Below, piece by piece: positions 4,386 to 13,507 of a stretch of DNA of 26,106 bases. Origin of the DNA: a bacterium (GTDB lineage: Bacteria > UBP18 > UBA7526); NCBI GenBank assembly GCA_030615855.1, contig JAUWYL010000019.1:1-26106 (forward strand), written 5' to 3'. Position numbers and translations under genes: made by a program. The notes below the pieces were generated by a model, which worked only from the letters and a program-made list of their open reading frames with translations, had not been told where the DNA came from and did not search any database. Position 1 is the stretch's first letter. Every line of letters starts with the position of its first letter.

Positions 4386-4407
4386 TCTTAAAACCTCCTG
4401 GAATCTC

Positions 4408-5118
4408 TTAATCTATTCTCGTCTCTAATCCGGCGCCTACCCTGATAAAATTCTCCTTGAACTTTTTCTCAAATAGAGCAATTGCTCTATTCCCGGTACA
4501 GTGACAGGGACCAGCCTTTTCCACCCCTAATCTTTTGAACTCTGAAATTACTCTATTCGCCCTCAGAGAAAATTCCAGATGGAAACCGCCCAGGACTAAA
4601 TAGACTTTTTTCTTTAAACTTTCCTTAATTTCTTTTACCATTCTTGCAATGCCCGGGTGGGCACAGCCAGTAATGATGGCAAGACCTTTATCCGTTTCTA
4701 TAGTTAGGGGGATCTCTTTGGGTCCCAATCCTCCCATCTGGGGACCAACCAGGATTCCCTCCGAGATATTAGCCATTCCACTTACGGGAGAAAACTTTAT
4801 ACCTTTTTCTTTCAAGTTCTGTTTAAAAGTCTCCGGAAAGGTATCTCCAAAATAGACTGCTACCTCTTTATTTCTGTCAATAATTGCTTCCAGACCACCG
4901 GTATGGTCCCAGTGAATGTGGGAGAGAACAACGGTATTAATACTTTCCGGCTCTACTTCTAAAGCCTGTAGATTAAAGAGAAGTCCTTGGCCATCGCCAC
5001 CGGTATCGAAGAGGACTCTCTTTCCTTGATGGTCAATGAGGCAGGAGAAGCCCCACCCGGTCTTCAATCCTTCTCGATGTAATCGATTATCGTAAACTAT
5101 TCTTAGTAATGTGCTCAC
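4408..5118 (-). CDS. Metallo-beta-lactamase-fold hydrolase (DHPS-like MBL family)
   Basis: A 236-residue MBL-fold protein with the metal motif H67-x-H69-x-D71-H72 (SHIHWDHTGGL). Later ligand regions are TGCAHPGI and GGFHLEF, and a CHCTG segment follows near residue 210. This pattern matches the archaeal/bacterial subfamily annotated as 7,8-dihydropterin-6-methyl-4-aminobenzene-phosphate synthase-like, whose true reaction is unclear in bacteria. The start is a GTG whose bases overlap the DUF89 stop (GTGA). Such MBL proteins are often found beside MTH1175-like and ferredoxin-ATPase genes in anaerobes, which fits the surroundings. Confidence 0.9.
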   Translation of the reverse strand: MSTLLRIVYDNRLHREGLKTGWGFSCLIDHQGKRVLFDTGGDGQGLLFNLQALEVEPESINTVVLSHIHWDHTGGLEAIIDRNKEVAVYFGDTFPETFKQNLKEKGIKFSPVSGMANISEGILVGPQMGGLGPKEIPLTIETDKGLAIITGCAHPGIARMVKEIKESLKKKVYLVLGGFHLEFSLRANRVISEFKRLGVEKAGPCHCTGNRAIALFEKKFKENFIRVGAGLETRID

Positions 5119-5999
5119 TTTCTCACTTTCTCATCTGCTCCACCTGATGCTTTAAGAACCGCGCCCCCTACCCTTACTCCAATATGGCGGGCGATGACCG
5201 GGCACTTCACTTGTAATAGAAAATAGATTCTATCGTCTTCTTCGTCACTCAATGATTCGTAATTCCCCTGCCCCTTGGCAATAATTATATCTGCTTTACC
5301 ATAAATTTCTAAGAAATTTTTAGAACATGAATTCAGGATAGTGCCTGGAATATCAGAGCCGTTAGAAACGACTCGGGCCACTTCACTCATAGAGACTTCT
5401 TGGGCATCATTCAAGGTAACATCATTAATGATTGGTGCTCCACGCACTACATAGTAAACTTCTTGCCCTTGATCTCTTTTATCAATCTCTTCAATCAAAA
5501 TTTTATCAAAGACAATCTCTCCCGCATTGTCACCCAGATAGAGAATAGTCCTGGCCTTATCCAAAGATTGAACAAATTCTCGGTAATGGTCAATAGTCAA
5601 ATTTGCTTTTAATGTTTTTTCTTGAGTCTTTTCCAGATCAAAATATCCCTTTGCTGCTGAATCCATGATATTTCCGACAATGGCCAATTTTATTGCAGTA
5701 AGTAAAGGCTCCTGAGAATTCTTAATAATTCCTTTAAATTCGGAATATTTTCTTAGAACCAACTGGTTATATTTACTTTTAACTTCCTTATAAGGATCGG
5801 AACAATAGGTTAGCTCCTTCAGTGTCTTATGAATGAAGTGACCAATCTGAGGAGGGGGAGTACGGGGATTCATGCGACAGAGATTGAACATTACCTGATT
5901 AAGAACCATTCTTTGGATGGTTTCATCATCTGTTGCCAAACGAGCTGCTTCCAGGGCTTGCCTTAAGAAACAGGGAAAGCATTCTAAGTAGGTTTTCAT
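5115..5999 (-). CDS. DUF89 (ARMT1-like) damage-control phosphatase family protein
   Basis: A 294-residue protein that opens with the subfamily signature of DUF89: C7-x-x-C10 followed by LRQALEAAR. The metal-dependent phosphatase core is visible as YLGDNAGEIVFDK (about residues 155-167), with VRGAPIINDVTLNDA and AKGQGNYE downstream. Family members remove phosphate from damaged or toxic sugar and cofactor phosphates, including phosphopantetheine derivatives; the substrate here is unknown. It heads the transcription unit that runs to the window start. Its last codons (D-E-K-V-R-K) fall in an AGTGAGA-type tandem repeat that also supplies the GTG start of the next gene. No clear promoter was seen in front. 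Confidence 0.9.
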   Translation of the reverse strand: MKTYLECFPCFLRQALEAARLATDDETIQRMVLNQVMFNLCRMNPRTPPPQIGHFIHKTLKELTYCSDPYKEVKSKYNQLVLRKYSEFKGIIKNSQEPLLTAIKLAIVGNIMDSAAKGYFDLEKTQEKTLKANLTIDHYREFVQSLDKARTILYLGDNAGEIVFDKILIEEIDKRDQGQEVYYVVRGAPIINDVTLNDAQEVSMSEVARVVSNGSDIPGTILNSCSKNFLEIYGKADIIIAKGQGNYESLSDEEDDRIYFLLQVKCPVIARHIGVRVGGAVLKASGGADEKVRK

Positions 6000-6053
6000 G
6001 GAAATACCCCAATTAGTTGGTTAGTCAGTTTTCCAGTTGCCAGTTGAGATTTT

Positions 6054-6089
6054 AAAAAGAATGGCTGTGGCCTTTAAAAGCCACAGCCA
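6054..6089 (-). terminator. Rho-independent terminator after the MTH1175-like gene
   Basis: A perfect 10-bp stem (TGGCTGTGGC, 6062-6071, with GCCACAGCCA, 6080-6089) with an 8-nt loop. On the minus strand it is followed by a U-rich tract (TTCTTTTT). It lies 25 nt after the stop at 6114 and separates this unit from the DUF89 gene. Confidence 0.85.
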
Positions 6090-6113
6090 GCGCAAAAAAT
6101 TTCCTTCATCTTG

Positions 6114-6737
6114 CTATTTCTTCTTCTTTTTTTTCTTCTTGTTCAACTCGGCGATTCTCTTCTGGATCTGGTCCATCTGTTGCTTTAGCATCTGAGCCTG
6201 ATCTTCAAGCATCTGGAGTTCGTCTTCCTTACTTATCTGAGGAGCTTGGGGTGGTTGAGAAGGAAAGCCCATGGGCTGCTGCCATCCCATGCCCATTCCT
6301 CTGCCCATACCCATGCCTCTTCCCATACCCATGCCACGGCCCATTCCCATGCCAAAACCCATTCCAGAGCCCATTCCCATGCCGAACTTAGCCCCCACAC
6401 TGGGACCAGTGGTGGGTTGTAACTTTCCACCCTTATAGGCATTGAGCGCTTCTTGGACAGTGCCGCTCACTCCTACAATGACCTTTACTCCTGCTTGAGA
6501 AAGGACCTGGAAGGCATTGGGACCACAAGCACCAGTCAAAACAACCTCTGCCCCTTCATTAACCACTAACTGGGCGGTCTGGATCCCGGCTCCACCCAAT
6601 GCAGCGACATTTGGATTCTGAATGGCCTTGAACTTCATGGTTTTTGGGTCAACGATGATGAAGTACTGGCACCTTCCAAACCTGGGATCTACCGGGCTGG
6701 ATAAATTCTGTCCGGTAGAACTTACTGCTATCTTCAT
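6114..6737 (-). CDS. MTH1175/NifX-like (orange-protein-type) protein with Gly-Met linker and C-terminal coiled coil
   Basis: A 207-residue three-part protein. Residues 1-108 form a dinitrogenase iron-molybdenum cofactor-binding fold of the MTH1175 type (MKIAVSSTG, SPVDPRFGRC with C23, VLTGACGPNA with C71). Residues 118-152 are a Gly/Met/Arg repeat (units of GMGMGR). After a Pro/Gln stretch, residues 168-199 form an amphipathic coiled coil (EDELQMLEDQAQMLKQQ…), and the protein ends in eight lysines. The fold binds metal clusters; the Desulfovibrio orange protein of this family carries a Mo-Cu cluster. The coiled coil is nearly the same as that of the DUF5320 protein at 7264-7659, so the two probably pair or dock on a common partner. 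A strong AAGGAGG site precedes the ATG. Confidence 0.92.
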   Translation of the reverse strand: MKIAVSSTGQNLSSPVDPRFGRCQYFIIVDPKTMKFKAIQNPNVAALGGAGIQTAQLVVNEGAEVVLTGACGPNAFQVLSQAGVKVIVGVSGTVQEALNAYKGGKLQPTTGPSVGAKFGMGMGSGMGFGMGMGRGMGMGRGMGMGRGMGMGWQQPMGFPSQPPQAPQISKEDELQMLEDQAQMLKQQMDQIQKRIAELNKKKKKKKK

Positions 6738-6744
6738 TCTTATA

Positions 6745-6826
6745 CCTCCTTTGCAACCGCCAAAACGCTAAACTAAACTTAAAGATGCCAAATTTTCGCG
6801 CTTTAGTGGATATTCTGCGCTTTATT
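6745..6826. repeat. Intergenic repeat X, copy of the segment at 7181-7260
   Basis: About 80 bp beginning in the ribosome site of the downstream gene (CCTCC on the plus strand) and matching 7181-7260 at roughly 85% by eye. Shared blocks include TTGCAACCGCCAAAACGCTA and GCCAAATTTTCGCGC. The unit ends at the stop codon of the upstream gene. Confidence 0.75.
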
Positions 6827-6827
6827 T

Positions 6828-7172
6828 TTACCAACCATAGAACCAGCGGCCACGACCTCTACCCCATCCGCGGCCAAAACCACGACTCCAACCGCAGCCA
6901 AAGCCACGGCCAAAGCCTCGACCAAATCCCCGGCCAAACCATGGTTGTGCCATGCCAGGATAAGGCAATCCCCCATAAGGCATAACCGGCCTATATGGAT
7001 ATCCTGTTCCTGCATAGCCATATGGCGCTGTTGCTCCATAGGGATATCCCATTCCGGCATAGCTATATGGGGCACCTGCTCCCGCACCGTAAGCTGGCAC
7101 GGCACAAAAACCCATGCCACGACCAGTCATCGGCCCCATGCCCATCGGTCCAGTTCCATTTCCAAAAGGCAT
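6828..7172 (-). CDS. DUF5320-type Gly/Tyr-rich protein
   Basis: A 114-residue protein opening with M-P-F-G-N-G-T-G-P-M-G-M-G-P-M-T-G-R-G-M-G-F-C, an excellent match to the DUF5320 N-terminus including its Cys (C23). The middle has tandem units of A-P-Y-[SG]-Y-A-G-x-G-Y-P-Y (residues 34-60), and the C-terminal third is Gly/Arg/Phe/Trp-rich (RGFGRGFGRG, C93 in GFGCGW). It lacks the coiled coil of its neighbour. The ATG at 7172 is fixed by an AAGGAGGTGAG site 8 nt upstream; a GTG frame starting at 7181 lies inside that site. Long frames on other strands here reflect the Gly-rich composition. Function is unknown. Confidence 0.85.
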   Translation of the reverse strand: MPFGNGTGPMGMGPMTGRGMGFCAVPAYGAGAGAPYSYAGMGYPYGATAPYGYAGTGYPYRPVMPYGGLPYPGMAQPWFGRGFGRGFGRGFGCGWSRGFGRGWGRGRGRWFYGW

Positions 7173-7180
7173 ATTTCTCA

Positions 7181-7260
7181 CCTCCTTGCAACCGCCAAAA
7201 CGCTAAATTAAACTCAAAGACGCCAAATTTTCGCGCCCTGGCGGATATTTTGCGGTTTTG
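7181..7260. repeat. Intergenic repeat Y, copy of the segment at 6745-6826
   Basis: Second copy of the segment described at 6745. In this copy the outer bases CCGCCA (7192-7197) and TGGCGG (7239-7244) are exact complements, so it can fold back. It fills the whole gap between the two DUF5320 genes. Confidence 0.75.
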
Positions 7261-7263
7261 CGT

Positions 7264-7659
7264 CTACTTCTTTTCTTTGCTCAGTTCTGCGATTCTTTCG
7301 TTGATAGCCTCCATCTCTTGCTGGAGGGCTTGAGCATTATCCTTCAGCATCTGGAGTTCCTGTTCCGGGGGAACTTGTCCGGTGGGAAAACCAGCTCCAT
7401 ATGGTGCAGCATACCCCATTCCGTAATAGGGGTAGTCATATCCCATCCCTAAATATGGATTGAAATAGGGATAAGCCCCCCATCTTCCGAAGCTTCTACC
7501 ACGACCTCTGCCGAATCCACGGCCAAGGCCAAATCCTCTGCCAAATCCAAAGCCAAATCCTCTGCCAAGGCCAAGTGGTCCTGGTATTTGACCAGACATC
7601 CAGAGTGGCGTGCACCAGCCTCCCGTTCCCCAGGGTCCTGTTCCATCTCCCCATGGCAT
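7264..7659 (-). CDS. DUF5320-type protein with C-terminal coiled coil
   Basis: A 131-residue protein: residues 1-15 carry the DUF5320 opening (M-P-W-G-D-G-T-G-P-W-G-T-G-G-W, then C16), residues 30-60 are Gly/Phe/Arg repeats (GRGFGLGRGFGRGRG), residues 62-90 are Tyr/Pro-rich, and residues 98-131 form a coiled coil (EQELQMLKDNAQALQQEM…). That coil aligns almost residue for residue with the C-terminus of the MTH1175-like protein two genes downstream. The ATG at 7659 follows AAGGAGGTGATT by 8 nt; the longer frame uses a GTG inside the site. It is the first structural gene after the Fur-family regulator at 7902. Role unknown; a scaffold or partner of the metal-binding protein is inference. Confidence 0.88.
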   Translation of the reverse strand: MPWGDGTGPWGTGGWCTPLWMSGQIPGPLGLGRGFGFGFGRGFGLGRGFGRGRGRSFGRWGAYPYFNPYLGMGYDYPYYGMGYAAPYGAGFPTGQVPPEQELQMLKDNAQALQQEMEAINERIAELSKEKK

Positions 7660-7725
7660 CTTAATCACCTCCTTTCAACACAGATATTCACAGATTTATT
7701 ACAGATAGACACAGATCACAGATGT
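7660..7725 (-). repeat. ATCTGTG repeat forming the DUF5320 leader (copy 1)
   Basis: Same arrangement as at 3335-3402: several ATCTGTG units on the minus strand, an exact 19-nt core (7688-7706), then AAGGAGGTGATT and the ATG of a DUF5320 gene. Confidence 0.75.
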
Positions 7726-7750
7726 TGGAAATCGATTCTTCCGGTTAAGT

Positions 7751-7880
7751 TTTTAGGTTAAGGTTAGGTTGTTGGTTTAGTTGTTAGGTTAGGTAGTTGG
7801 TCTTAAACACCTAACCCTTACCAAACTATCAAACTCACTACTTTATCCTAACCCAACTACCCACTATCTTAGACTTTAGT
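7751..7880. repeat. Foldback element, family C, copy 1
   Basis: About 125 bp rich in GGTTAG on one arm and CTAACC on the other, able to form a long imperfect hairpin around 7804-7812. Its first 49 bp (7756-7804) are identical to 23483-23531, and the right arm is also closely similar. It starts about 20 nt after the stop codon of the Fur-family gene at 7902. Confidence 0.85.
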
Positions 7881-7901
7881 AACTTTTATCTCTCCTACTG
7901 A

Positions 7902-8351
7902 TCATCGGCATTTATCGCATAATCCATAAAATTGCAACTGGTGGGTGTTAATCTTGAAATTATACTTCTTTGATAGCGTTTTTCCAATCATACTTAAGAA
8001 TTCCACTTCATCATCTATGAAGTCAGTATAATCGATTATCCTTCCGCAGCTGATACAGATTAAATGGTGATGGTGTTCACTTCCCGGTCCAGCGGTTAAC
8101 TCATATCTGTTCCTGCCGTCTCCAAAGTCAAACTTAGAGATCAACCCCATCTGGGCTAAGAGATCCAGGGTTCTATAGACGGTAGTGAGGCCAATGGCAG
8201 GATATATCCTGCGCACCGCCATATAGACCTCTTCTGCACTCAGATGTCTCGATGTTCGACTTAATACATCCAGGATAATCTGTCTCGGCAGAGTCAACCT
8301 ATATCCATATCCTTTAAATCTTCTCTGCCACCAAGGAGGCCCACCAGGCAT
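7902..8351 (-). CDS. Fur-family metalloregulator (paralogue 1)
   Basis: A 149-residue Fur-superfamily repressor. A winged-helix domain (recognition helix region IGLTTVYRTLDLLAQMGL, residues 53-70) is followed by the dimerisation domain with a His cluster (EHHHHLICISCG, residues 92-103). Structural-zinc pairs are present at C99/C102 and C145/C148. I use the ATG at 8351 (GGAGGG 5 nt upstream) rather than a TTG at 8363. It has its own consensus promoter with an overlapping palindrome, suggesting autoregulation. It precedes the DUF5320/MTH1175 genes, which it may control. Fur, PerR and Zur roles cannot be told apart here; the recognition region differs from the paralogue at 11527. Confidence 0.93.
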   Translation of the reverse strand: MPGGPPWWQRRFKGYGYRLTLPRQIILDVLSRTSRHLSAEEVYMAVRRIYPAIGLTTVYRTLDLLAQMGLISKFDFGDGRNRYELTAGPGSEHHHHLICISCGRIIDYTDFIDDEVEFLSMIGKTLSKKYNFKINTHQLQFYGLCDKCR

Positions 8352-8370
8352 AAATCCCTCCAATAGTTAT

Positions 8371-8419
8371 TGAAAATGGTTTCCATTATCATTATATTAC
8401 GCAAAAATCCATTTGTCAA
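8371..8419 (-). promoter_or_regulatory. Consensus sigma70 promoter with Fur-type operator for the regulator at 7902
   Basis: TTGACA (8414-8419), a 17-nt spacer and TATAAT (8391-8396), all exact consensus. Overlapping the -10 region is a 21-bp dyad (8371-8391): TGATAATGG, AAA, CCATTTTCA, with one mismatch in nine pairs. It resembles the classical GATAATGATAAT Fur-box pattern. Confidence 0.85.
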
Positions 8420-8439
8420 GTCTTTTTTTGTACCGCGGA

Positions 8440-8529
8440 TTTCTTTGGATTGCAGACTGTGTAGGCATAAACATCGCAGATTATTGCGGATGAATTCCTT
8501 GACACAGATTAACGCGGATTTGTGCAGAT
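8440..8529. repeat. Degenerate CAGATT/GCGGATT repeat region
   Basis: Upstream of the regulator promoter, with scattered units such as GCAGATTATTGCGGAT, ACACAGATTAACGCGGATT and GTGCAGAT. It belongs to the same loose family as the CACAGATT repeats elsewhere in the window. No gene is seen. Confidence 0.5.
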
Positions 8530-8565
8530 AAAAAGAAAGGCCCCGATTCATTACGAATCGGGGCC
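8530..8565 (-). terminator. Rho-independent terminator after the barrel gene
   Basis: A perfect 11-bp GC-rich stem (GGCCCCGATTC, 8539-8549, with GAATCGGGGCC, 8555-8565) and a 5-nt loop. On the minus strand it is followed by TTTCTTTTT. It lies 16 nt after the stop at 8581 and closes the iron module. Confidence 0.95.
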
Positions 8566-8580
8566 CTCCAAAGACGCTAA

Positions 8581-9330
8581 CTAAAACTCGTAGGTGAGAC
8601 CAAAGGTGACCGTGCTATCCGGACTGGCCGAAGTCAGGCCTACCCCATAACCAGCATCCAGGATGATGCCATTTGGTAGCTCGTAGTTGAAACCGGCCAG
8701 GGCAGAACAGGGATTTCTAGAGACTGTAGGATCGACCTGTCTCTCACCAGTAACCTCGGCTACCAGATTGAACTTGTCTGTCAGGGCATATTCCCCGGCT
8801 GCTCCATAGGTGAGGCGCTCATCCCTGGAGCCGGTCTTTGCTCCCGTAAGGAAGATATAGCCAAAGTTCAGATGGGTGGTGAAGCGATCAGATCCCTTGG
8901 TCAGGATTCCGGTGATGGTGTGTTCTACATTTCCGGTGCCCCGCCCATCAGCCACCGAACCAGTATCCCATTTTTGGGTCCACTTTAAAGCTAATGAGGG
9001 CCTCTTCCTCTTCTCATCCAAGAAGCGGTACTTAATCTTGGTGGTCATATCCCCAAACCCATCCTCGGCAACCTCAGGAGATTCATAGGGTATCTCTAGG
9101 CCGATATCGATCCTCTTGGTTATCCCGGTGGTAAGGGCCATGGTGGTTGTCCAGTCCTTGGTATGGGTGCTGTGGGTGTGGGAATACTCCTCACCCAGTT
9201 CCACCTGGAGATGGCCGGGTTCTACGGTTCCCGTATCGTCTGTGGCCAAGGGTCTTCCAGCAAAAGCAATGGATGTTCCTCCTAAGATCAAGATGCTTGC
9301 CAAACTAACTACTATCCAGACTTTCTTCAT
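8581..9330 (-). CDS. Outer-membrane beta-barrel protein (MetA-pathway/Phenol_MetA_deg-like)
   Basis: A 249-residue exported protein. Residues 1-24 are a signal peptide ending AFA, then GRPLATDDTGTVEPGHLQ, an opening typical of the transporter family annotated as a MetA-pathway phenol degradation protein. The rest shows alternating amphipathic strands (such as TTKIKYRFLDEK, GIILDAGYGVGL), and the chain ends in Tyr-Glu-Phe, the usual C-terminal signal of outer-membrane barrels. A His cluster (H51, H53, H56 in SHTHSTHTKDW) follows the first strand. GGAGG lies 8 nt upstream of the ATG. It follows feoB and has its own copy of the 23-bp operator found before feoA and fur, so it is probably metal-regulated. 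Substrate unknown; the family name need not reflect its function. Confidence 0.88.
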   Translation of the reverse strand: MKKVWIVVSLASILILGGTSIAFAGRPLATDDTGTVEPGHLQVELGEEYSHTHSTHTKDWTTTMALTTGITKRIDIGLEIPYESPEVAEDGFGDMTTKIKYRFLDEKRKRPSLALKWTQKWDTGSVADGRGTGNVEHTITGILTKGSDRFTTHLNFGYIFLTGAKTGSRDERLTYGAAGEYALTDKFNLVAEVTGERQVDPTVSRNPCSALAGFNYELPNGIILDAGYGVGLTSASPDSTVTFGLTYEF

Positions 9331-9353
9331 TCATTTCACCTCCTCTCTTTTTA

Positions 9354-9381
9354 TTGCAATTGCATCTCATTCTCAACTATA
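9354..9381 (-). promoter_or_regulatory. Fur-type 23-bp operator and likely -10 for the barrel gene
   Basis: The 23-bp site 9354-9376 reads TTGAGAATG, AGATG, CAATTGCAA on the minus strand. It differs from the feoA site at four positions. A TATAGT hexamer (9376-9381) abuts it, at the same spacing as the -10 boxes of the other two sites. A -35 match is poor. Confidence 0.75.
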
Positions 9382-9416
9382 TCTTAAAAAAATTTGCTCC
9401 TATTTATTTCTTTTAA

Positions 9417-11123
9417 TTATAAAATTAAATTCAGGATGCCTCCTACCAAAAAGGCACTAACAATCATGATCCCGGTAGCCTTGAGCATATCCTTTAACCC
9501 TAACTCTTTCAGAAGCACGATAAAAGTAGCGATACAGGGAAAAGACATGGCTAAGACTACGCTACCCACTACTAACTGCTGAGCAGTGAGATTCAAAGGC
9601 CCGAGCATCCCCAGGGCAACATCCTTTCTCAAGAAACCGATGACTAAAGCAACTACTGCTTCTTTGGGAAGGCCTAAAATTCCATGGATGAGAGGTGCCG
9701 TGAGATTGGCCAGAAAGTCAAATACTTTCAAGAAATAGAGGATATTGACTACTAGAACACCTAATAATACGAGAGGTAGAGCTTCTCTCAAGAAGCTAAG
9801 GATGCGCATCCAGAGTTTCTTTACCGTTGTTCGCCAGGGAGGCAGGCGATAGGGTGGAACCTCGATCAATAGCGGAGGGCTGAAACCCTTCAAAACACGA
9901 TTTAGAATGAGTCCCAGGAGAAGCCAGACGAGGAATAATGTTCCATAGACCATAGAGACATACTGGCCGCCATGCTTCCCTACAAGACCGAAGATCATGG
10001 CCTGAAGCGCAGCACAGGGAACACCAATGGAGATGAGAGCGCTGGCAATGAACCTTTCCCTCTTCGATTCCAGGATGCGAGTGCTCAATATTCCAGGGAC
10101 GTTACATCCCAAGCCCAATAGGTTGGGAATGATGGCATAGCCGTGGAGACCAAGTCTGTGCATCAGATTATCTAGAAGAATGGCTAAGCGGGGAAGGTAG
10201 CCGGTGTCCTCCAAGATTCCTAAGACAAGATAGAAAGAGAGGATATAGGGAAGGACCATGGCCAGGGGCACATAGAGCCCGGTGGTGAGAAGGCCGAAGG
10301 ACTGGACGAAATCAATCCCGCCCTCAATCAGTTTACCAATTAAAATGTCGTGGAGGAAGCCTCCCCTACCAAGAAAGAGGCTCAATTTCGTTATTAGGGG
10401 AAGATAGAGCTTGGTGAAGAAGGGCTCTAAGAGATAACCGATGAGCCCCTCACCAATGAAGCGAATTATCTTGAAGGAAAGGAAGAGGACAAGCATTGCT
10501 ATGGGAAGGCCGCTTAGGGGTCTCGTACTCGCTTCTTCTAGCACCTCCCGGAGGGTGTGATGGCGATGGGTGAGGATCTGAACTTCATGAGTGATTTTAC
10601 CTATATTGTCCCACCTCCGGTGTTCTGTGCGCTTTATTGGTTTCTTTCTCTTTGCCTCTTCCAGACGGGAGAACAATTCCTTTATTCCTTCACCCGTTAT
10701 CCCTACCGTAGGAACAACGGGAACACCCAAAAGTTTCTCTAACTTCTCAACATCGATATTTATTCCCCTATGTTTTGTCTCGTCCCAGATATTAAGAGCA
10801 ATTACTGTGGGAACTCCCCTCTCAATGAGCTGTAGGGCCAGATTCAGGTTTCTCTCAAGGTTGGTGGCATCTACGATATCGATGACCAAATCCCCTTCTT
10901 TAAGCATCTCTACCGCCACCTCTTCGGCCTTAGAGGTGGGCTCTAAGGTATAAGCACCAGGAACATCGATGACTTCTACCCTCTTCCCTTTATACTCTGT
11001 CCAGCCCTTGGTGAACTCCACTGTAGTTCCCGGATAATTGCTGGCGATAACATGAACCCCGGTCAAACGGGAAAAGATGACGCTCTTCCCCACATTGGGG
11101 TTTCCCATAAGGAGAATTCTCAT
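9417..11123 (-). CDS. feoB: Ferrous iron transporter FeoB
   Basis: A 568-residue inner-membrane Fe2+ transporter. The N-terminal G domain shows G1 GNPNVGKS (7-14), G2 around PGTTVEF, G3 DVPGAY and G4 NIWD, with G5 as VGITGEG. The membrane part contains both Gate motifs: LEDTGYLPRLAILLDN with PNLLGLGCNVPGI, and GVPCAALQ and SFPCIATF in the later helices. It is shorter than the 700-770-residue proteobacterial form, mainly in the linker and C-terminus, but no key motif is missing. The ATG shares one base with the feoA stop (TAATG), so the two are translated together. No feoC is seen; instead a co-regulated outer-membrane barrel gene follows. Confidence 0.97.
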   Translation of the reverse strand: MRILLMGNPNVGKSVIFSRLTGVHVIASNYPGTTVEFTKGWTEYKGKRVEVIDVPGAYTLEPTSKAEEVAVEMLKEGDLVIDIVDATNLERNLNLALQLIERGVPTVIALNIWDETKHRGINIDVEKLEKLLGVPVVPTVGITGEGIKELFSRLEEAKRKKPIKRTEHRRWDNIGKITHEVQILTHRHHTLREVLEEASTRPLSGLPIAMLVLFLSFKIIRFIGEGLIGYLLEPFFTKLYLPLITKLSLFLGRGGFLHDILIGKLIEGGIDFVQSFGLLTTGLYVPLAMVLPYILSFYLVLGILEDTGYLPRLAILLDNLMHRLGLHGYAIIPNLLGLGCNVPGILSTRILESKRERFIASALISIGVPCAALQAMIFGLVGKHGGQYVSMVYGTLFLVWLLLGLILNRVLKGFSPPLLIEVPPYRLPPWRTTVKKLWMRILSFLREALPLVLLGVLVVNILYFLKVFDFLANLTAPLIHGILGLPKEAVVALVIGFLRKDVALGMLGPLNLTAQQLVVGSVVLAMSFPCIATFIVLLKELGLKDMLKATGIMIVSAFLVGGILNLIL

Positions 11124-11362
11124 TATTCTTTTACCTCGACTATTATTCTACTTGCCATGCCGAAGCCTATAGCGATCTCGGTGCCCCCAATCCTTACGGT
11201 AACTGGGCCTCTCATAAACATGGCACTTACCTTGGTTACTTTCTTTCCTGGCCTAATCCCTATGGCGGAGAGCCTGCGGGTCATACCAAAGCCTCCCATA
11301 ATCTGAATTACCCGACCGCTCTGGCCTCTTCTTAATTGGGTTAAGGGAATTTGTTTCGCCAT
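11123..11362 (-). CDS. feoA: Ferrous iron transport protein FeoA
   Basis: A 79-residue SH3-like FeoA, the small cytosolic partner of FeoB. Typical landmarks are LTQLRRGQSGRV, then MGGFGMTRRLSAIGIRPG and a closing GGTEIAIGFGMASRIIVE. The ATG follows AAGGAG by 5 nt. It is the first gene of the feoAB unit, with a promoter and operator at 11480-11530 and an unusually long leader of about 130 nt that can form nested helices. Confidence 0.97.
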   Translation of the reverse strand: MAKQIPLTQLRRGQSGRVIQIMGGFGMTRRLSAIGIRPGKKVTKVSAMFMRGPVTVRIGGTEIAIGFGMASRIIVEVKE

Positions 11363-11377
11363 ATATTCTCCTTTTTA

Positions 11378-11475
11378 CCCCGTTAGATAGTAAATGTTGT
11401 TAGATTTCAAATATTATCCTAATGGAGAGTACCCCTTTGATAAAAGAATATTTACGTGTTAAACATCTAATGGGG
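11378..11475 (-). other. Possible structured 5' leader of feoA
   Basis: The minus-strand leader begins with CCCCATTAGAT (11465-11475) and ends with ATCTAACGGGG (11378-11388), which pair over 11 positions with one mismatch. Inside, AAATATT can pair with AATATTT, and GGGG-TACT-CTCC can form a small hairpin. I do not recognise it as a known riboswitch class; AT-rich sequence makes chance pairing possible. Confidence 0.35.
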
Positions 11476-11479
11476 CAAG

Positions 11480-11530
11480 TTGCAATTGCGTCTCAATTAC
11501 AAATATATCTTAAAAAAATTGTTTTGTCAC
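11480..11530 (-). promoter_or_regulatory. feoAB promoter with Fur-type 23-bp operator
   Basis: GTGACA (11525-11530), 17-nt spacer, TATATT (11502-11507). The dyad 11480-11502 reads TTGTAATTG, AGACG, CAATTGCAA on the minus strand, its arms complementary at eight of nine positions. It starts right at the -10, so binding would block transcription. The -35 overlaps the stop codon region of the upstream regulator. Confidence 0.85.
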
Positions 11531-11973
11531 GCATTTTTTAAGATTTTTTTTTGACATTTCCTACAGTATCCTTTGATTCCTAACCTGTGCTCTATGGGTT
11601 CAAATCTATACTTTTTACAGATTTTATTTTGCAGTTTTTCTATCCGATTTTCTTTAAATTCGATAACCCTGCCACATTTTATGCAGAGCAGGTGATCGTG
11701 ATGGGGATGGCCAAAGACATGTTCATAGTAGACCCTATCCCGGCAGCGAAGGGCCTCCCTGATTAGGCCACTCTCAATTAGTAGGGGGAGGGTGCGATAG
11801 ATGGTAGCCCGGGAGATGATCCTGTCCTTCTTGCGCAGTCTTCCAAAGAGCTCTTCTACATCGAAATGCTTATGAAAGGAGAAAACCTCTTTTAGAATAA
11901 GTTCCCTTTCCGGGGTGAATTTCAATCCCTTCTTTTTCAGGTGATCCCTGAATCTATCTTCCTCAGTAATCAT
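11527..11973 (-). CDS. fur: Fur-family ferric uptake regulator (paralogue 2)
   Basis: A 148-residue Fur protein. The winged helix (ISRATIYRTLPLLIESGL, residues 53-70) is followed by the canonical sensing region (YEHVFGHPHHDHLLCIKCG, residues 83-101), with zinc pairs C97/C100 and C137/C140. The long frame extends upstream to 12099, but that part overlaps gcvPB and the promoter. The ATG at 11973 has AGGAGGG just upstream and lies 13 nt after the operator. Its own promoter carries the 23-bp operator shared with feoA and the barrel gene, which points to an autoregulated Fur repressor of iron uptake. Fur rather than PerR or Zur is inferred from the feoAB linkage. Confidence 0.94.
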   Translation of the reverse strand: MITEEDRFRDHLKKKGLKFTPERELILKEVFSFHKHFDVEELFGRLRKKDRIISRATIYRTLPLLIESGLIREALRCRDRVYYEHVFGHPHHDHLLCIKCGRVIEFKENRIEKLQNKICKKYRFEPIEHRLGIKGYCRKCQKKILKNA

Positions 11974-11985
11974 ATTCCCTCCTAG

Positions 11986-12036
11986 TTGCAATTCGGTCTC
12001 AATTACAATTATACCCTTATGTTCTGTATTTGTCAA
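11986..12036 (-). promoter_or_regulatory. fur promoter with 23-bp operator, embedded in the end of gcvPB
   Basis: TTGACA (12031-12036), a 17-nt spacer and TATAAT (12008-12013) match consensus exactly. The operator 11986-12008 reads TTGTAATTG, AGACC, GAATTGCAA on the minus strand and touches the -10. The -35 lies inside the last codons of gcvPB. Confidence 0.9.
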
Positions 12037-13507
12037 GTTTTTTCCAGCGGAGGTTGGGTCTTCGGGCAGCGGTGACCGCATCGAGTCTTCTCCGTCCACC
12101 TTTGGTGGACGGATGGGTTCGTCCGCCTTCAGCGGTCGGATGGGGGGCGGTCTTTACTATCTCTGGATTCTCTTCTGTTTCTTTGGCGATTCTTATCATT
12201 GCACTAGCGAATTCATCCAGGGTTTCTTTCGATTCTGTCTCCGTGGGCTCAATCATAATGGCTTCAGAGACGATTAGAGGAAAATAGATGGTGGGGGCAT
12301 GAAAGCCATAATCTAAAAGCCTCTTTGCAATATCATTGGTATGGACACCTTCCTCAAGTTGCCTTTTACCAGAGAGAACGAACTCGTGCATACAGACCCT
12401 ATCAAAAGGAAGGTAATAATAGGATTTTAACTTCTTCATGAGGTAATTAGCATTCAAAACCGCATTCTCCGCTACCTCTCTCAGGCCTTCTGGTCCCAGA
12501 GTCCTCAGATAAGCATAGGCCTTGACCATCACTCCAAAGTTTCCATAGAAGGTCTTTATCTTGCCGATAGATAAGGGTCTATCATAATCTAACCTATATC
12601 TATCCTTTTCCTTCTCAATAGTCGGTTTAGGTAAGAAAGGAACCAGAGATTTCTTTACCCCTACTGGACCAGAGCCCGGACCTCCCCCACCATGAGGGGT
12701 GGAAAATGTCTTATGGAGATTAAGATGGATGATATCAAAGCCCATATCCCCTGGTCGAGCAATCCCCAAGAAGGCATTCATATTCGCCCCATCGCAATAG
12801 ACTAAAGCGCCCTTCTGATGTGCTATAGCAGTAATTTCTAATATCTCCTCTTCAAATAGGCCCAGAGTATTGGGATTAGTGAGTATAATGCAGGCAACTT
12901 CTTCATCCAAAACCTTCTTCAGCTCTTTTAAATCGACTGTTCCTTTTTCATTTGATCTGATGGTGATTGATTCATATCCGCATAAGGTAGCGGAGGCGGG
13001 ATTCGTTCCATGTGATGAATCAGGAACGATGACCTTGGTCCTCTTCTCTTTCTTATGCTCGAAGTAGGCCTTTACCATCATCAGGCCAGCCAGTTCTCCC
13101 TGAGCACCGGCTGCTGGCTGTAGAGTAAATCCATCCATCCCGGTGATCTCACATAAGACTTTTCCAAGATGATATATGAGTTCCAGGGCCCCCTGGGATA
13201 ATTCCTCGTCCTGTAAGGGATGGGATGATCTAAAACCAGGAAGTTTTGCTATCTCCTCATTTACCTTGGGGTTATACTTCATAGTGCAGGAACCTAAGGG
13301 ATAGAATCCAGTATCTATCCCATAGTTCTGAGTAGATAACTTAGTATAGTGTCTTACTACTTCTACTTCGCTTACTTCTGGCAGGTTGAGTTTAGAACGT
13401 AGGGAATCCTTTGGTACTAGTTCTTCTATCTTCTTCTCTGGAACATCGCAATCAGGAAGGCTTATGCCCACTCTTCCCGGACGACTCTTTTCAAAAATCA
13501 ATTTCAT
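12017..13507 (-). CDS. gcvPB: Glycine decarboxylase subunit 2 (GcvPB)
   Basis: A 496-residue PLP-dependent P-protein subunit; with GcvPA it decarboxylates glycine and passes the aminomethyl group to lipoyl-GcvH. The PLP lysine is K266 in [17 protein letters not shown]. Other landmarks are [20 protein letters not shown] and [10 protein letters not shown]. Near the C-terminus, where relatives read roughly KTAPH-xTPV-RRLDEV, two 9-residue units (456-473: HPTAEGGRT and HPSTKGGRR) are inserted. After the usual final RPNLRW the frame continues for KKLDKYRT, which encodes the -35 of the fur promoter. AAGGA lies upstream of the ATG. The gap to gcvPA is only 43 nt and contains an 8-bp tandem repeat. 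Confidence 0.97.
12089..12142 (-). repeat. Duplicated 27-bp palindromic unit inside gcvPB
   Basis: Two adjacent 27-bp units (12116-12142 and 12089-12115), each able to form a hairpin. The second has a perfect 8-bp stem: CGTCCACC (12093-12100) with GGTGGACG (12104-12111). The first has a similar stem with one mismatch. Stem differences between the units are partly compensatory. Both are read in frame. Confidence 0.85.

Follow-up and report, generated by a model that had tools for sequence, protein, structure and literature searches.

A predicted Fur operator of the non-GATAAT type at the fur, feoAB and barrel-gene promoters of a UBP18 bacterium, next to a second fur gene with a near-classical box

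The nature of Fur operators has long been a matter of debate, since quite dissimilar sequences are read by a single protein family. In Magnetospirillum gryphiswaldense, the metal-dependent footprint of Fur (MgFur) on the feoAB1 promoter is TTAATCGCAACTCATTCGCAATTGC, the complement of which contains TTGCGAATGAGT (PMC4506495; PDB 4rb1 series). This operator is described by its authors as lacking the three GATAAT hexamers; the same report states that MgFur also binds the classical box in vitro and that its residues Tyr56 and Arg57 contact bases (PMC4506495). In Caulobacter crescentus, Fur is reported to repress feoAB and outer-membrane receptor genes from sites that overlap the -35 and -10 elements (PMC3751524).

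Here, a stretch of 26,106 nucleotides of DNA (the window; contig JAUWYL010000019.1) from a bacterium of the UBP18 lineage was analysed. In it, fur-A, feoA, feoB, a barrel gene, a terminator, fur-B and then DUF5320 and NifX-like genes follow one another, all on the minus strand (Table 1). Three promoters in this cluster carry a 23-bp site, referred to here as A-type, with the consensus TTGcaAtTGAGaCTCAaTtgCAA and the form of an 11-1-11 dyad. An earlier note had placed these sites at 11986-12008, 11480-11502 and 9354-9376, and these coordinates are exact; the gapless 23-bp alignment and the arm patterns that it proposed hold as well. Self-complementarity is 8/11 for the fur-A site and 9/11 for the feoA site, and is weakest for the barrel site (6/11). 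As claimed, each operator touches a -10 hexamer (TATAAT, TATATT and TATAGT, respectively), the last base of the hexamer being the first base of the operator, and this overlap of one shared base with the -10/start region is predicted to lead to occlusion at all three sites. A 17-nt spacer and a good -35 element had been claimed for two of the promoters and were confirmed at fur-A (12 of 12 consensus positions) and feoA (10 of 12); at the barrel promoter, for which the note made no such claim, no good one was present. The fur-A promoter (12008-12036) is located within the 3'-terminal part of the preceding open reading frame, that for glycine dehydrogenase subunit 2 (12017-13507), which has a C-terminal tail with short repeated GTCCGCC-like segments.

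Table 1. Features of the fur-feoAB-barrel-fur-B region, in coordinates of the window
Feature	Position	Strand	Sequence or size	Remarks
A-type Fur operator (predicted), fur-A promoter	11986..12008	-	TTGTAATTGAGACCGAATTGCAA	conserved in G001 and G002
A-type Fur operator (predicted), feoAB promoter	11480..11502	-	TTGTAATTGAGACGCAATTGCAA	nearest to consensus; identical in G001
A-type Fur operator (predicted), barrel promoter	9354..9376	-	TTGAGAATGAGATGCAATTGCAA	12/19 against the classical box
fur-A promoter (predicted, sigma-70-type)	12008..12036	-	TTGACA-N17-TATAAT	12/12 consensus; kept in L064, L065 and L066
feoAB promoter (predicted)	11502..11530	-	GTGACA-N17-TATATT	10/12; TTGACA-N17-TATATT in G001
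Barrel promoter and operator	9354..9394	-	41 bp	88% identity to the feoA promoter
fur-B promoter (predicted)	8391..8419	-	TTGACA-N17-TATAAT	12/12
Classical-type (B-type) Fur box (predicted), fur-B promoter	8370..8392	-	ATGATAATGGAAACCATTTTCAA	15/19 against the classical box
fur-A, Fur-family regulator	11527..11973	-	148 aa	ATG at 11973; PF01475, E 4.5e-30
feoA	11123..11362	-		PF04023, E 2.9e-19
feoB, ferrous iron transporter	9417..11123	-	568 aa	TIGR00437, 371.8 bits, above cut-off; PF02421, PF07664
Outer-membrane beta-barrel-like protein, Phenol_MetA_deg family	8581..9330	-	249 aa	PF13557, E 1.8e-15
Intrinsic terminator between barrel gene and fur-B	8535..8569	-	16-pair stem and T tail	
fur-B, second Fur-family regulator	7902..8351	-	149 aa	PF01475, E 4.2e-34; clade separate from fur-A

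The A-type pattern was found to be rare. Within the window it was matched six times (three palindromes on both strands), against 0.07 matches expected from dinucleotide shuffles, and in the whole genome (1.375 Mb in 45 contigs, 93.6% complete) it was matched with up to three mismatches only at the fur, feoA and barrel promoters. The genome scan suggested in the earlier note therefore gave few matches, all upstream of iron genes, and other genomes behaved likewise; since the pattern occurs at three promoter sites and nowhere else in the genome, it is neither scattered nor located within gene bodies. When a looser pattern was used in this genome, matches other than the promoter sites remained at the control level, and the A-type regulon was not enlarged.

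In line with the claim that the site is not a GATAAT box, the A-type sites agree with the classical sequence GATAATGATAATCATTATC at 9, 10 and 12 of 19 positions, and they fail a test for three GATAAT-like hexamers with a good 19-mer match. The barrel site has a left arm that is intermediate toward the classical box. The MgFur operator at feoAB1, when scored with a matrix built from the three window sites only (matrix A), reached 16.3 bits, a score matched by 0 of 2,000 shuffles, against 1.9 bits with the classical matrix. This match assigns the three sites to an operator type already known from experiment. The A-type operator is thus not new in kind: its motif is divergent, yet it keeps the 11-1-11 register of the extended Fur box. 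The open-access literature yielded no relevant account of the A-type motif outside Magnetospirillum, nor of a pair of Fur paralogues each with its own motif, which is not proof of absence.

The probable ligand of the A-type operators is the product of fur-A. Its PF01475 domain scored 104.7 bits, against a gathering score of 23.1, and alignment to solved Fur proteins located the HHDH metal motif, two CxxC motifs (the structural zinc pairs) and the recognition-helix motif TxYR. None of the curated NCBIfam equivalog models was passed, the best being the Helicobacter-type Fur with 88.2 bits against a cut-off of 200; since these models are clade-specific, the missed cut-off lowers the label of the protein and not the mechanism proposed for it. 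The earlier note had assigned the sites to the adjacent Fur protein. Its Fur-type regulon stood, but it had overlooked that the window encodes two Fur proteins, the second of which (7902-8351) has a near-classical box.

This second box, at 8370-8392, passes the classical-box test (15 of 19 positions) and is the best genome-wide match to the classical pattern, with one mismatch. It overlaps the fur-B -10 hexamer by two bases. Both fur promoters are therefore perfect in sequence and overlapped at the -10 hexamer by an operator, and share the same layout with different operators. Downstream of fur-B, the region 6114-8351 encodes DUF5320 proteins rich in glycine and methionine, as well as a NifX-like protein that carries a DUF5320 tail; the fur-B gene of another genome (G043) also adjoins a DUF5320/NifX-type protein (L020 3-215). 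A second classical Fur box stands directly downstream of fur-B in 7 of 24 fur-B loci, which suggests that the fur-B/DUF5320/NifX cluster may itself be Fur-regulated.

To compare the operators of the two Fur proteins, regions around Fur-A and Fur-B orthologues from other genomes were scored with matrix A and with a matrix of the classical consensus (matrix B), using a threshold score of at least 18 and column-permuted palindromic decoys as controls. Among the fur-A upstream regions, which come from many families and are not a corrected phylogenetic sample, 15 of 38 reached the threshold with matrix A (decoy mean, 0.04; largest, 6), and 12 of 35 did so after the three closest relatives (L035, L065 and L066) were removed. 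The observed mean was reached by 0 of 300 decoys. Over half of these upstream regions are without an A-type site at this threshold, and matrix B detected 2 of the 38. Immediately after fur-A, where the next gene is commonly feoA or feoB, 9 of 36 gaps were positive with matrix A. At fur-B, 20 of 24 upstream regions were positive with matrix B and 0 of 24 with matrix A.

The separation of the two types persisted when sites were selected neutrally by their common core (TTGNNANTG...CANTNNCAA). Half-site positions 4 (C; P = 0.005), 7 (T; P = 0.003) and 11 (G; P = 0.00004) still differed, the two halves of one site being counted separately in these P values. The proteins also differ consistently at the start of the recognition helix, which reads SRAT in Fur-A and GLTT in Fur-B, and these residues are candidates for determining specificity. 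Within the helix, the Tyr and Arg of TIYR (Fur-A) and TVYR (Fur-B) occupy the positions of Tyr56 and Arg57 of MgFur. The two clades often occur in one genome, even divergently from one gap, as in G043, where a single intergenic region carries two sites, the A-type one nearer fur-A and the classical-type one nearer fur-B.

A-type sites also occur at other genes. In ten genomes, the A consensus was found at 29 places, compared with 6 for a reversed-pattern control, and sites were present at the fur and feo promoters of genomes bearing fur-A. The three best sites in G032 lie between fur-A and feoA, before a feoA-feoA-feoB cluster, and before a HutW-like radical SAM gene, which falls below the curated HutW cut-off and shares its contig with feoB. 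A near-perfect site, TTGCAATTGAGTGGCAATTGCAA, was found upstream of a TonB-dependent receptor gene in G315 (L193 1501-3020), and L065 has sites ahead of fur, of a second feoA and of a gene for an LbtU-like porin, a weak assignment below the family cut-off. In G063, four of five matches lie away from fur.

Within the window, a segment of about 105 bp that separates the feoA operator from feoA (11375-11479) is missing in the congener G001. This segment is flanked by 14-nt inverted repeats (11375-11388 and 11465-11478), its end matches G000:C44:68551 (20/20) and G003:C49:5645 (89%), and it has the appearance of a MITE-like insertion that extends the feoA leader to 118 nt. No family was found in an Rfam search of the window, and the leader folds barely better than shuffled sequences (z, -1.6).

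The barrel gene is probably an iron-regulated target. Its promoter and that of feoA are identical over AATTTTTTTAAGATATA outside the operator (17/17; 0 of 1,000 shuffles), and the feoA promoter and leader of G001 match window positions 9334-9394 with 83% identity over 64 bp. The barrel promoter is thus probably a copy of the feoA promoter, and the simplest reading would be that this promoter was copied to a newly placed barrel gene; alternatively, the shared stretch may reflect conservation of an A/T tract in the spacer, and similar tracts are found in the promoters of L065. Because the similarity of the two promoters (88% over 41 bp) extends beyond the operator, the feoA and barrel sites are probably not independent. 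In G001 (L064), def follows directly after feoB, and the barrel, fur-B, DUF5320 and NifX genes are missing. The block of about 5 kb that is missing there between feoB and def (window 4400-9400) encodes a metallo-beta-lactamase fold protein, an ARMT1-like phosphatase, a NifX/DUF5320 protein, two DUF5320 proteins, fur-B and the barrel protein. An iron role for the barrel is supported by G091 (L172 1384-2263), in which barrel, fur and feoB genes run in the same direction and classical Fur boxes precede the barrel (2241) and fur (1384) genes. The remaining barrel homologues have neither operator type nearby.

Other explanations for the three sites were considered. They might be acted on by Fur-B, or by both paralogues, with the two operator types representing grades of affinity within one overlapping regulon. 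Several observations are consistent with this: fur-B adjoins the barrel gene, whose operator has a left arm near the classical half-site, the 11-1-11 register is common to both types, and MgFur binds operators of both kinds (PMC4506495). However, the clades differ in the operator type found at their own fur genes, with the A-type at none of the 24 fur-B promoters, and the start of the recognition helix separates the clades consistently. In addition, the fur-A and feoA sites are retained in G001, a genome 75% complete in which fur-B was not found. On balance, we regard action by Fur-B, alone or together with Fur-A, as unlikely.

It is also conceivable that the regulator is another sensor of the Fur family, such as the peroxide sensor PerR, the zinc sensor Zur or the manganese sensor Mur, in which case the sites would not mediate an iron response. 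Fur-A does fall below every curated NCBIfam equivalog cut-off, but its best model scores are for Fur, and the targets are feoAB here and feoAB, HutW-like and TonB-receptor genes elsewhere. Moreover, an Asp at the position before HHDH is a trait of PerR, whereas Fur-A has Glu there; a different sensor is therefore highly improbable. The motif might also be suspected of being a dispersed repeat, or a palindrome arisen by chance, on account of the 41 bp common to the feoA and barrel promoters, since two of the three sites may have arisen by copying. Yet the motif is confined to three promoters genome-wide, the same genes carry it in other families, and between congeners (G001 and G002) the fur operator varied in 1 of 23 columns, compared with 8 of 17 in the adjoining 17-nt spacer (P = 0.002). 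This reading was refuted by the genome-wide rarity and the orthologue conservation, and we give it practically no weight.

Collectively, these findings make it very likely that the sites are non-GATAAT Fur operators through which Fe2+-bound Fur-A represses fur-A, feoAB and the barrel gene, with fur-B probably forming a parallel circuit. The conservation at fur and feo genes elsewhere, together with the recognition of the MgFur-feoAB1 operator, identifies them as Fur operators of a known non-GATAAT type. We infer Fur-A as the binder, Fe2+ as the corepressor and repression as the effect. When iron is plentiful, the Fur-A dimer would take up Fe2+ and occupy the dyad over the -10/start region, excluding RNA polymerase, and fur-A, feoAB and the barrel gene would thereby be repressed; when iron drops, the metal would leave Fur-A and the three promoters would open. 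Fur-B, with a near-classical box at its own promoter, probably acts in a circuit that is separate from or overlaps that of Fur-A. The earlier interpretation thus survives in its main point, a local regulon of the Fur type that comprises fur, feoAB and the barrel gene and has predicted autoregulation; it had missed the second Fur with its classical box, and the operator type is a known one. A bolder proposal, whose chances we put at somewhat below even, is that the orthogonal codes TTGCAATTGAG-A-CTCAATTGCAA and TTGATAATGAT-A-ATCATTATCAA insulate the two Fur clades through SRAT and GLTT, and that the new barrel gene was wired in by a copy of the feoA promoter. Since MgFur binds the classical box too, Fur-A and Fur-B need not divide the operators strictly between them.

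Two Fur paralogues 4 kb apart thus have distinct operators within an identical promoter layout, a split that is repeated across families, and matched fur-A/fur-B pairs offer natural material on how Fur proteins discriminate between operators. For uncultured groups in which searches with the textbook Fur box turn up little, the A-type matrix offers a usable means of locating iron genes. The analysis also links to iron control a family of barrel proteins that otherwise bears the label "phenol degradation".

Compared with known systems, the locus resembles Magnetospirillum feoAB1 in having a non-GATAAT operator at a feoAB promoter, but the window sites are nearer to a full 23-bp dyad, and the sections of the Magnetospirillum report drawn on here describe no second operator code. 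Like the Caulobacter crescentus regulon, it includes feoAB and outer-membrane targets, whereas the Caulobacter regulon is larger and has a 19-bp motif (PMC3751524). With the classical Fur box of Escherichia coli and Pseudomonas aeruginosa, the A-type sites share the 11-1-11 register and the promoter overlap; they differ at half-site positions 4, 7 and 11, which are C, T and G in place of A, A and T, giving 9 to 12 matches in 19, while the fur-B box at 8370-8392 matches the classical sequence at 15 of 19 positions.
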